A DNA stretch of 64,000 bases from Pedosphaera parvula Ellin514 (lineage in GTDB: Bacteria > Verrucomicrobiota > Verrucomicrobiia > Limisphaerales > Pedosphaeraceae): contig NZ_ABOX02000034.1 in assembly GCF_000172555.1 (NCBI RefSeq), forward strand, positions 1-64,000, written 5' to 3'. This document shows positions 3,538 through 54,882 of this stretch, in pieces (the stretch's first letter is position 1; the number at the start of each line of letters is the position of its first letter). The translations under genes and the position numbers were made by a program. Below the pieces are notes generated by a model that saw only the letters and a list, made by a program, of their open reading frames with translations, had not been told where the DNA came from and searched no databases.

Positions 3538-4818
3538 TTAAATATTACCGGGAGGCCAAAGGCTTTGCCCGATATCAGTCCGGAAATAGCTTCCCAGGCT
3601 TCGTATTTTTCGAATATTTGAGTACGCCTTCTGAACGGCCTCCTCCAAGGATGCACTCAGTGCGATCACATCGCAAATCCGATGACCCGCCGAAAAGAGC
3701 CTCCCTTCGTGATCACCGGTTACTTCGTTCCACCAGACATCACAATCAAATGGCCCTGCTCTCTCGATCGGCAATAATGGCCCGTTGACGTGTACATAGG
3801 GATAACCATAACCCGCCAACGTAATGGAACAGCCAAAGTTCAAATCGCGCTTAAACTGAATCTCCAGTTTTTTATTTTGTGCAGTCTTTAATAGCACCTC
3901 AAAGGGATTCTCCAGCATCCGTAAAATCATTGCACCGGAGGTCACCCCGATGCGGATGTTATATTCGATGACATGCCATTTATTATCCCGCCGCACGGCC
4001 GTAACTTGAATGGGACCGTGATAATCGACCTCACGCAACCACGGAAGCAAGGGACGAATGAGTTCGCGTGCGAGGCCGTATTTGTCATCCGGATCGCGCT
4101 CCACCAAACCTCCTAGCGGTGCACCTGCCACCACGCCCATGTTCCCGTTGAACGCTCGCTTGTATTCCTGGTTCGTGACGAGCGAATAAATTTCTCCATG
4201 GCTTATCAATGCGATATGCCCGGCTTCAGCCCGTCCCATGTACTCCTGCAAAAACACACCTTCTGCATAATCAACGTTTCTTAACCAGGAGCGCGTATCT
4301 TCGATCGTTTCGCACAGGATGGTGTGAATCGGACTCGTCGGTGAACAAAGCGGGTTCTTGATGACGTATGGATGCGGGTGTTTCTCCAGAATCGATTCCG
4401 CTTCCAACCGATTGGATGCGACATACGCCTTGGGAAATGGAATTTTGAATTGATGGCACAGCTTGCGGGCAAAATCGCGCTCCCGCTCAATTTTCATTCC
4501 ATCGCCGGTCGGACCAAAAATCAGTGCCTTGGAATCCATCAGCTCCTTTGCCCAGGGAGCCAGAGCCCAATCAATTGACATCGGCACAACGAGATGAATG
4601 CGCTTCTCCTGTATCAACTGGTTGGGATTGGGAAACTGTTCGCGAGAGTAGGCTGGCCCCGCGATGGACGGAGGGTAATGAGCATAGTTCCGCGTGAGAT
4701 AGGTGGAAACGTCTGCACCATCGTCCTTTAAAATCTGCGTTGCGCTGTAGGCAAATGCTCCGACCCCCAAGACCATCACCGAAGGTGAATTGATTGAAGA
4801 GGCGGATTTCTTTGTCAT
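3538..4818 (-). CDS. PurD-like ATP-grasp ligase
   Basis: 426 residues with the architecture of phosphoribosylamine-glycine ligase: an N-terminal Rossmann-like part (VMVLGVGAFAYSATQIL), a middle section GPTGDGMKIERERDFARKL, then an ATP-grasp domain with YVIKNPL, VFLQEYMGR, a TNQEYKRAFNGNMG stretch matching the QDHKR/DGD region of PurD, and VIEYNIRIG as the metal-binding strand. Several canonical PurD positions differ, for example there is no GPNTGGMG loop (it reads GNMGVVAG). A paralogue with another amine or amino-acid substrate is therefore as likely as true PurD. It is the first gene of an operon with an alanine racemase (5 bp away) and an ATE-like transferase. The 249-bp repeated hairpin element starts about 100 bp upstream of its ATG. 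Confidence 0.75.
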   Translation of the reverse strand: MTKKSASSINSPSVMVLGVGAFAYSATQILKDDGADVSTYLTRNYAHYPPSIAGPAYSREQFPNPNQLIQEKRIHLVVPMSIDWALAPWAKELMDSKALIFGPTGDGMKIERERDFARKLCHQFKIPFPKAYVASNRLEAESILEKHPHPYVIKNPLCSPTSPIHTILCETIEDTRSWLRNVDYAEGVFLQEYMGRAEAGHIALISHGEIYSLVTNQEYKRAFNGNMGVVAGAPLGGLVERDPDDKYGLARELIRPLLPWLREVDYHGPIQVTAVRRDNKWHVIEYNIRIGVTSGAMILRMLENPFEVLLKTAQNKKLEIQFKRDLNFGCSITLAGYGYPYVHVNGPLLPIERAGPFDCDVWWNEVTGDHEGRLFSAGHRICDVIALSASLEEAVQKAYSNIRKIRSLGSYFRTDIGQSLWPPGNI

Positions 4819-4919
4819 TCGGTGCGATTCTTTCTGGGCGGCACTCCGCCTCGACTATTAAACACTCTATTTTTGTTATTTTAACATAAAGGGAGTCAGC
4901 GCGATTACAAGGGAGGCCA

Positions 4920-5168
4920 GACGCATCTTAATGCCGCCGCAATCCGGCGAAAATCGCGAATTGCCGCAACTCCGAAAGCCTGCCACGGCTAATGCGTCAG
5001 CAATTGAAACGGCCCTGGACAAAATAATTAAACGAACTGGCGTGATGCACAAGAAAATACCCTTATTGAAATCGGGCAATAAGGGTATTTTAAAAGCAGT
5101 TATACCCCGTGTCGAGAGAAATGGTGCGGCGGCAAACATTCTGAAGGGAGAACGCATTTAGATGCGTC
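4920..5168. repeat. Dispersed hairpin element, copy 1
   Basis: This fills most of the gene-free stretch 4819-5272. The whole block is recognisably similar to 54588-54844. Copy 1 ends in perfect 9-bp inverted repeats, GACGCATCT at 4920-4928 and AGATGCGTC at 5160-5168. Its core is a perfect 15-bp stem with an 8-nt loop: arms AAAATACCCTTATTG (5054-5068) and CAATAAGGGTATTTT (5077-5091). A weaker stem, CGCCG/CGGCG, lies near 4935-4949. The second copy has the same hairpin with one exchanged base pair. The short ORF on the minus strand across the element is not credible as a gene. Possible readings are a miniature mobile element, or a structured leader RNA for the ATP-grasp/alr operon that begins about 100 bp to its left. 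Confidence 0.75.
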
Positions 5169-5219
5169 CGCCTTGATCACAAAGGAAGCCAATGAGATTG
5201 GTCCGGCACACAAAAGAAA

Positions 5220-5247
5220 AACGGGTCTTCCGTTCAGAAGACCCGTT
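5220..5247 (-). terminator. Rho-independent terminator of the Gfo/Idh oxidoreductase gene
   Basis: Perfect 11-bp stem, AACGGGTCTTC (5220-5230) and GAAGACCCGTT (5237-5247), with a 6-nt loop. On the minus strand it is followed by a T-rich tail (TTTTTCTTTT) and begins about 25 bp past the stop of the oxidoreductase. It should separate that transcript from the hairpin element and the ATP-grasp operon further left. Confidence 0.88.
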
Positions 5248-53606: not shown

Positions 53607-54131
53607 TTAACTCATCACCCGGCGCAGACGCCAGACAGAAAGCAGTGTGTAGAACGCCACGGCGACTGCGTACGAAACAATGCCCAAGCCAATGGCCACG
53701 GGAATCAGGGAAAGATCACCAAAATACATCAAGGCGCCGCCAACGGCCGCCGTGAGCGTCGTCTGGGCGAATAGACAGAAAAGATAGAGCGAAATGCGTG
53801 TTTCCCGAACCCGTTCCACATGCCAATGGCGATAGGTTTCCTCTCCAAGAGATCGCATCAGCCAGGCTTGTTGGAAATTCCGTGCGGCTACGAGCACGCT
53901 GGAGGTGCTAATGACGATGGCGGATAGCGGCCAGGCAGCCAGGGAAAGGCACATGACCAGGTTCAACAACATGCCCCACCTCCAGCCGAGTTTCTTGGCG
54001 AGGGGGTTACCTTCGAGCATTAAAGTGGGCGTGGCGACCCAGGTGCTCAGGAAATCCATGGCCCGGGAAAAGGCCAATAAACTGAGCATGATGAAGTAAT
54101 CCGGGCTGCCAAATGGAACTGTTCCATCCAT
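53607..54131 (-). CDS. Hypothetical membrane protein between hisI and trpE
   Basis: About 174 residues with four or five hydrophobic segments: YFIMLSLLAFSRAMDFLSTWVA, MLLNLVMCLSLAAWPLSAIVI, LYLFCLFAQTTLTAAVGGAL and LIPVAIGLGIVSYAVAVAFY. The ATG at 54131 overlaps the hisI stop as TGATG, so it is translationally coupled to hisI; a GTG three bases upstream is possible. The trpE start lies 25 bp downstream. No known transporter family is recognised. Confidence 0.75.
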   Translation of the reverse strand: MDGTVPFGSPDYFIMLSLLAFSRAMDFLSTWVATPTLMLEGNPLAKKLGWRWGMLLNLVMCLSLAAWPLSAIVISTSSVLVAARNFQQAWLMRSLGEETYRHWHVERVRETRISLYLFCLFAQTTLTAAVGGALMYFGDLSLIPVAIGLGIVSYAVAVAFYTLLSVWRLRRVMS

Positions 54132-54520
54132 CACTTCTTGCCGTAAATCTGTTCCGGCGTCTCCAACTGCGGCTCAGTCGTCTTAAAACCGTCGCCACTC
54201 TCCTCAACCGAACGGAAGAAGCAGGATTTGTAGCCTTCGTGACAAGCCGCACCGATTTGCTCCACCTGGATCAAGAGCGTGTCGCCATCGCAATCAAATG
54301 CGATGTCCTTGACGGTCTGAGTATGGCCGCTGCTTTCGCCTTTCATCCAGAATTTTTGGCGGGAGCGACTCCAAAAGTGGGTCTTGCCAGTCGCGATGGT
54401 GGTTTCAATGGAGGCACGGTTCATCCAGGCCATCATGACAACACGGCCAGTGGATTGCTCTTGGATGATGGCAGGAATCAGTCCGTCCGAATTAAACTTT
54501 AATTTGTCGTAAAAGCTCAT
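54131..54520 (-). CDS. hisI: Phosphoribosyl-AMP cyclohydrolase
   Basis: 129 residues of the stand-alone HisI. KFNSDGLIPAIIQEQSTGRV opens the fold, VMMAWMNRASIETTIATG and THFWSRSRQKFWMKGESSG are signature stretches, and the metal-binding CDGD... and GAACHEGYKSCFFR cysteines are intact. It opens the ring of phosphoribosyl-AMP in histidine synthesis. There is no HisE fusion. The repeated hairpin element (54588-54844) ends about 70 bp upstream of the ATG. Confidence 0.95.
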   Translation of the reverse strand: MSFYDKLKFNSDGLIPAIIQEQSTGRVVMMAWMNRASIETTIATGKTHFWSRSRQKFWMKGESSGHTQTVKDIAFDCDGDTLLIQVEQIGAACHEGYKSCFFRSVEESGDGFKTTEPQLETPEQIYGKK

Positions 54521-54587
54521 TTGCAGTGATCAAATTAGCATATTTAAACGTTTGTAGGAAAGGACTAACGGGATCAACTGCTGGGCA

Positions 54588-54844
54588 GATGTATCTTAAT
54601 GCCGCCACAATCCGGTGGAAAAACACTTGGTTTTGCGAATTGGCGCAACTCCGAAATCCCACCACGGCTAATGCATCACCAATAGAACCCGCCCTGAGCC
54701 AAATATTTAAACGAACTGGCCTGACGCAAAATAAACTATAAAATACCCTCATTGAGTTCGGGCAATGAGGGTATTTTAAAAACGGTTGGACCCCGTGTCG
54801 AGAGAAATGGTGTGGCGGCAAACTTTCTGAGGGGAGAATGCGTC
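54588..54844. repeat. Dispersed hairpin element, copy 2
   Basis: Homologous over its length to 4920-5168 (shared blocks such as CTTAATGCCGCC, CACGGCTAATGC, TTTAAACGAACTGGC-like, CCCCGTGTCGAGAGAAATGG). The hairpin arms are AAAATACCCTCATTG (54740-54754) and CAATGAGGGTATTTT (54763-54777). Relative to copy 1 the pair T5064-A5081 is C54750-G54767, so the stem is kept by a paired change. The end repeats are less perfect than in copy 1. It fills the spacer between the DUF486 gene and hisI (54521-54882) and has the same orientation relative to hisI as copy 1 has to the ATP-grasp gene. Minus-strand ORFs across it are not credible. Confidence 0.75.
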
Positions 54845-54882
54845 CACCCGGGGATCAACTCACCCGCGAGCTCTCGGCCCTG

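Follow-up and report, generated by a model that had tools for sequence, protein, structure and literature searches.

What kind of sequence lies twice within the 64,000-nucleotide stretch of the Pedosphaera parvula Ellin514 genome analysed here (hereafter the window), with a perfect hairpin in each copy, and what does it do there? A sequence-only reading had placed two similar blocks at 4920-5168 and 54588-54844 and had suggested that they represent either a structured RNA family or a small non-autonomous mobile element. Both blocks were present in these spots on re-examination, with real extents slightly longer than that reading had given (4913-5175 and 54580-54850), and the perfect 15-bp stem with an 8-nt loop that it had described was found in each. 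Each half of the suggestion held in part. The block is, with near certainty, a MITE that has target duplications and an autonomous partner of the ISAs1 type, and its hairpin is separately conserved, and covaries, in related genomes. The element appears to fit the description of a mobile transcription-control module more closely than that of an RNA gene.

A MITE sharing its ends with an ISAs1-family insertion sequence

The MITE is short and repeated, about 270 bp long (~260–290 bp) when uninterrupted, and carries terminal inverted repeats with neither a transposase gene nor other coding capacity. Its inverted ends are CAGGGCRGACGCATC, its target duplications are 10 bp in length, and its end sequences across copies follow the form CAGGGCRGACGCATCTNAATG. 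Copy 1 (4913..5175; no strand assigned, as for copy 2) has terminal inverted repeats GACGCATCTTAATGC and GCATTTAGATGCGTC that are 93% alike and is flanked by an imperfect target duplication, GATTACAAGG (4903-4912) and ATCACAAAGG (5176-5185). The 9-bp perfect end repeat described for this copy by the sequence-only reading, GACGCATCT/AGATGCGTC (4920-4928 and 5160-5168), is real and extends to 14/15 bp. Copy 2 (54580..54850), the right end of which is slightly deleted, lies between perfect 10-bp direct repeats, GGGATCAACT (54570-54579 and 54851-54860), a target duplication that had been overlooked.

The genome containing the window (G000; 7.41 Mb in 102 contigs), for which genome-wide statistics were derived from searches, was searched at the DNA level with the block. 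This search yielded 19 matching stretches that correspond to 16–17 copies, some interrupted or truncated, with a best non-self match of E 9e-78; the recurrence of the block in G000 is far beyond chance. The hairpin pattern, allowing up to three mismatches, identified exactly 16 hairpins in the same genome, all within MITE copies and 15 of them without mismatch, and the reversed-pattern control identified 0. The DNA search with the MITE block gave 0 matches in 57 relatives.

In 9 of the 14 MITE copies with both ends defined, the two flanking 10-mers match at no fewer than 7 positions, compared with 0 of 240 mismatched-pair controls. A search of G000 for the MITE ends also identified two identical 1231-bp insertion sequences (C8:44598-45828 and C17:28878-30108), with ends CAGGGCAGACGCATC and perfect 10-bp duplications, GGATTTTCTG and ATGCACTATG, and their protein of ~380 aa contains PF13808 and PF01609 domains, which is the make-up of the ISAs1 family. 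Because these insertion sequences have the same ends and the same duplication length as the MITE, they are the likely source of the transposase that would move it in trans. The interior of the MITE, by contrast, is unrelated to that of the insertion sequence; it contains a conserved module of promoter and hairpin that, in a sister species, has persisted longer than the ends of the element. REP/REPIN sequences (RAYT-associated hairpins, characterised by a foot of the GTAG type and a gene for the RAYT, a Y1 transposase) were considered as well; the G000 copies show IS-type ends and duplications instead. Integron attC hairpins and HUH-transposon end hairpins were also considered and dropped, since terminal inverted repeats and 10-bp duplications mark the copies in G000; in the former case, moreover, a GTTRRRY end of the attC type was not seen.

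Covariation of the hairpin

In copy 1, the hairpin (5054..5091, minus strand) is a 15-bp perfect stem of AAAATACCCTTATTG (5054-5068) and CAATAAGGGTATTTT (5077-5091), and in copy 2 (54739..54778, minus strand) it is a 16-bp perfect stem of TAAAATACCCTCATTG (54739-54754) and CAATGAGGGTATTTTA (54763-54778), each closing an 8-nt loop and each supported by covariation over copies. The single paired exchange that had been reported between the two stems, T5064-A5081 to C54750-G54767, was confirmed, and both blocks fold more stably than shuffled sequences (z -3.6 and -2.7). Between-copy identity within the MITE is 88% in the arms and 93% in the TGTCGAGAG motif (TGTCGAG), against 69% in the remainder; the hairpin and this motif, 23 nt beyond it, are the most constrained part of the element.

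Compensatory stem changes exceed chance across copies and species. An unfitted alignment of 22 sequences contained 30 double-change cells, compared with 8.8 in shuffled alignments. In 38 copies, 53 such cells were counted compared with 9.1, and 96.8% of cells were paired compared with 33–44% when slid; this alignment was fitted to the model, and its later copies call for caution, since the covariance model that found them favours paired sequences. The 16 MITE hairpins, for their part, lie in copies found by sequence, and in the first six foreign copies the varying positions were free in the search pattern. Stem length changes of one base occur on both arms together and are thus compensated. 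Unpaired stem changes in further copies, which the sequence-only reading had named as a finding that would speak against it, are rare: the changes are almost all paired.

A coding frame across the hairpin with a protein-like translation (..LLKAGNKGILK..GLRVERNGVAANIL) was rejected, as it is broken in other copies by indels and stem length changes. An Rfam search gave nothing at the gathering threshold in the window, and a search of 14 loci gave only sub-threshold chance matches. Just outside copy 1, near the stop codon of the neighbouring gene, the window contains a perfect 11-bp hairpin with a 6-nt loop (5220-5247; AACGGGTCTTC/GAAGACCCGTT), which looks like an ordinary terminator.

A promoter-like sequence overlapping the hairpin

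The module containing the hairpin is ~75 bp in length and is read on the reverse strand, opposite to that of the sequence-only reading, as ATTTCTC-TCGACA-N16-18-TAAA(C/A)T followed by the remainder of the stem, the loop and a T-rich tract. The inverted repeat of 15–16 bp, with its 8-nt loop, starts within the -10 hexamer or immediately after it, and the T-rich tract follows the 3′ arm. Copy 1 contains an exact match to CTCGACA-N17-TAAAAT at 5087-5116 on the minus strand, with a -35-like hexamer, TCGACA, at 5110..5115 and a -10-like hexamer, TAAAAT, at 5087..5092 that overlaps the foot of the hairpin 5′ arm. Copy 2 contains an exact match at 54773-54802, also on the minus strand, with TCGACA at 54796..54801 and TAAAAT at 54773..54778, within the foot of the 5′ arm.

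The two hexamers are 16–18 bp apart, as in sigma70 promoters, with a best-scoring spacer of 16 or 17 in 42 of 45 copies, and a good -35 is paired with a stem-foot -10 on one strand only; one copy (L207) has a perfect TTGACA. Single-copy promoter scores are modestly better than those of shuffled sequences (median p 0.01 in MITEs and 0.05 elsewhere). In seven copies (L174, L180, L181, L193, L195, L203 and L206) the stem is displaced past the -10 and the hexamers keep their spacing outside it, which argues that the promoter motif is more than a consequence of the stem. The unit is thus likely to be a sigma70-like promoter with a predicted start within the 5′ arm of the hairpin.

An inverted repeat that sits over a start site could alternatively be a DNA operator, to which a repressor dimer would bind at about +8 to +13, like the lac repressor, so that the element would spread a regulated promoter. 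The inner CATTG-N8-CAATG, nearly invariant over several families, is consistent with such a site. A protein site, however, needs no match between its arms, whereas the arms observed here change together in ~97% of cells, the one-base length changes included, and the half-sites would be unusually long; an operator is therefore considered quite unlikely.

An exact search for CTCGACA-N16-18-TAAAMT in four genomes identified mostly promoter-hairpin modules; among the few additional sites, five lie in G007. The reversed-pattern control gave 0–1. Four of the five G007 sites (L221-L224) read CTCGACA-N17-TAAACT, share extra bases (TTAC in the spacer and CAAC after the -10) and have no comparable hairpin, and perhaps form a promoter class of their own in the group; the hairpin-free promoters of L221 and L224 lie directly before lipoprotein-like ORFs.

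Distribution in related genomes

Eight related genomes also contain the hairpin with its motif, and covariation among the copies is strong. Further copies in relatives, on whose existence the sequence-only reading had staked its proposal, were found by covariance-model search: a first model identified 16 copies in G001, a genome of the same genus, and a small number in two sister-genus genomes, and a second identified copies in G002, G152, G217, G245 and G263, all of the same order. A scan for the hairpin plus TGTCGAG in one genome per species (84,980 species) identified six places, all in Pedosphaera metagenome-assembled genomes, and the viral contigs searched with the core pattern gave no match. 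Weak model matches in G006 and G028, and one in G005 (L183-L185), were judged to be ordinary terminators.

Outside the module, the MITE is decayed or unrecognisable in the genus sister G001, whose copies have little else in common. The MITE profile extends through its left half in three of them (L160, L175 and L172), and for this reason at least these three look like decayed members of the same MITE family. The G001 sites before GlcF, Rex and LOG have orthologues in G000 with much shorter intergenic spaces; as the module is absent upstream of these orthologues, a chromosomal regulator fixed at certain genes was ruled out. In another family of the order, the module was observed within other repeat families with shared flanks (L193-L199 in G245 and L203-L205 in G263).

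Orientation towards neighbouring genes

Gene starts were assigned from reading frames instead of annotation, by taking the closest plausible frame on the side to which the promoter points. On this basis, the promoter points at a gene start in 12 of 14 MITE copies and in 14 of 19 scorable copies outside MITEs; the sum, 26 of 33, gives a two-sided p of 0.0013. The bias outside MITEs is weak alone (p 0.06), and the remaining 7 of the 33 point the wrong way. The faced genes are unrelated to one another and include those for Rex, a flavin reductase, a CcmC-like protein, an ECF sigma factor, an Mfd-like fragment (domain match at residues 172-256), a NuoA-like protein and LOG, among others. Within the window, the promoter of copy 1 faces a gene for a GARS/ATP-grasp-type protein of 426 aa (3538..4818, minus strand; assigned from ORF, Pfam and context), and that of copy 2 faces a hisI-like gene for a phosphoribosyl-AMP cyclohydrolase of 129 aa (54131..54520, minus strand; ORF, Pfam PRA-CH E 8e-36 and context).

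It might be supposed that the element is a plain MITE, its palindrome kept perfect by replication template-switching, with no host function and an incidental likeness to a promoter. The MITE itself is real, and template switching can produce paired changes in inverted repeats. The copies are not young, however, differing by ~30% outside the stem, and the stem length, loop length, promoter motif and spacings persist in several families of the order although the flanks are lost; the orientation bias towards genes also speaks against this explanation, which is regarded as distinctly improbable.

A possible insulated mobile promoter

The reading that we favour, with moderate confidence, is that of an ISAs1-moved MITE carrying a mobile promoter and an overlapping terminator-like hairpin that would shield it from read-through. 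Since most copies point at a downstream gene, the MITE would carry its promoter in front of host genes and thereby act as a mobile promoter. Transcription would start inside the 5′ arm of the hairpin; RNA arriving from an upstream gene would contain the whole hairpin and a U-tract and would terminate, whereas RNA begun at the embedded promoter would be without much of the 5′ arm, would form a weaker hairpin and could run into the gene. The module would in this way swap the transcription of its upstream neighbour for its own. The sequence itself establishes the MITE, its sharing of ends and duplications with the insertion sequence, the covariation of the stem, the anatomy of the promoter and the bias in orientation; from these features we infer the promoter activity, the termination and the insulator logic alike.

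The loop lies 9–18 nt past the -10 and a canonical start 5–9 nt past it, so the transcript cannot hold the full 15-bp 5′ arm; mean predicted stability is -21/-24 kcal/mol for the full stem compared with -6/-9 for RNA from the predicted start. Because the embedded promoter cannot fully transcribe the paired stem, the simplest account is that the stem is used as a terminator by upstream read-through RNA, and the role of the hairpin is probably to insulate the promoter from such transcription. The stem, at -21 to -24 kcal/mol, is accompanied by a T-rich tail with 5–6 T in 10, a stretch that is interrupted in many copies. A more extensive version is put forward tentatively: a self-insulating mobile promoter, its start buried in the terminator 5′ arm such that only foreign read-through is stopped, may have been distributed through an order of Verrucomicrobia by two or more MITE-like repeat families and kept by selection after the remainder of the transposon had decayed.

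Where the stem is displaced (L174, L180, L193 and others), a folding energy of -11 to -16 kcal/mol persists in RNA from the predicted start, which might therefore terminate itself. On a rival reading, the promoter makes a short transcript ending at the hairpin, either a ~40-nt RNA or a leader of the downstream gene that is stopped conditionally. The order of promoter, hairpin and T-rich tract is right for this, the 8–9 bp of stem left after the predicted start in the displaced-stem copies would make attenuation possible there, and a CCCGATTT-like part of the loop recurs among G001 copies. Such a role is nevertheless unlikely, because in the common form, with the -10 within the 5′ arm and the loop 9–18 nt from it, the 15-bp stem is not transcribable as a whole, yet its outer pairs covary.

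The favoured reading of an insulated mobile promoter has partial counterparts among known systems. Native transcription of IS10 and IS50 starts within an inverted repeat, and the full hairpin, which hides the ribosome-binding site of the transposase, can form only in RNA that enters from outside. The proposed logic is similar, but in the module a T-rich tract comes after the hairpin, which suggests termination, and it is a neighbouring gene that is served. As in Rho-independent terminators, the stem has an ACCCGC/GCGGGT core and is followed by T-rich DNA; it differs from them in its 15-bp length, in the TAG or similar sequence that separates the Ts from the GC core, in the fixed 8-nt loop and in its fixed position over a promoter. 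Putative mobile promoters, as represented where the original work is cited, are repeated promoter-bearing sequences upstream of unrelated genes (Matus-Garcia, Nijveen and van Passel, 2012; cited in PMC9208149 and PMC4596501). The promoter-like sequence described here is likewise repeated upstream of unrelated genes; as far as those citations describe the class, the difference is that the promoter is here fused to a covarying terminator-like hairpin and carried by a defined MITE. In the literature searched, which covered few subscription journals, the combination of an ISAs1-type MITE, a promoter and a covarying terminator-like hairpin was not found, nor was anything specific on the element or on overlapping terminator-promoters. 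If the favoured reading is correct, a natural part of ~75 bp stops an incoming transcript, starts a new one and is distributed by transposition; a selfish element could rewire operons without harm, and a regulatory piece would outlive the transposon that brought it. As the unit is short and occurs in many copies with compensatory changes in several related genomes, it is simple to test.

Interrupted copies

Four MITE copies of G000 (L063, L065, L068 and L069; C16, C8, C30 and C42, respectively) contain unrelated inserts of <200 to ~840 bp at nearly one common site, just behind the hairpin on its promoter side. The copy in L065 (131-1186; G000:C8, about 103980-105035) is ~1056 bp long and contains a 154-aa lipoprotein-like ORF (MKRFFTLVFLLGIFSSSLIGCAH...) on the promoter strand, ~130 nt past the hairpin, for which a Pfam search gave no match; the promoter-hairpin module may serve this ORF as a passenger gene. 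In L070 (170-352 and onward; G000:C1:241819-242001), the hairpin loop of a MITE copy is split by what appears by eye to be an IS66-type insertion. Nested within the MITE copy of L066 (G000:C18, about 81830-81935) is a further small element, also palindromic; its ends are GGGTGTAATTAAAAGTG and CACTTTTAATTACACCC, and it has a duplicated flank of ~9 bp (CAGAATGTT/CAGAACGTT).
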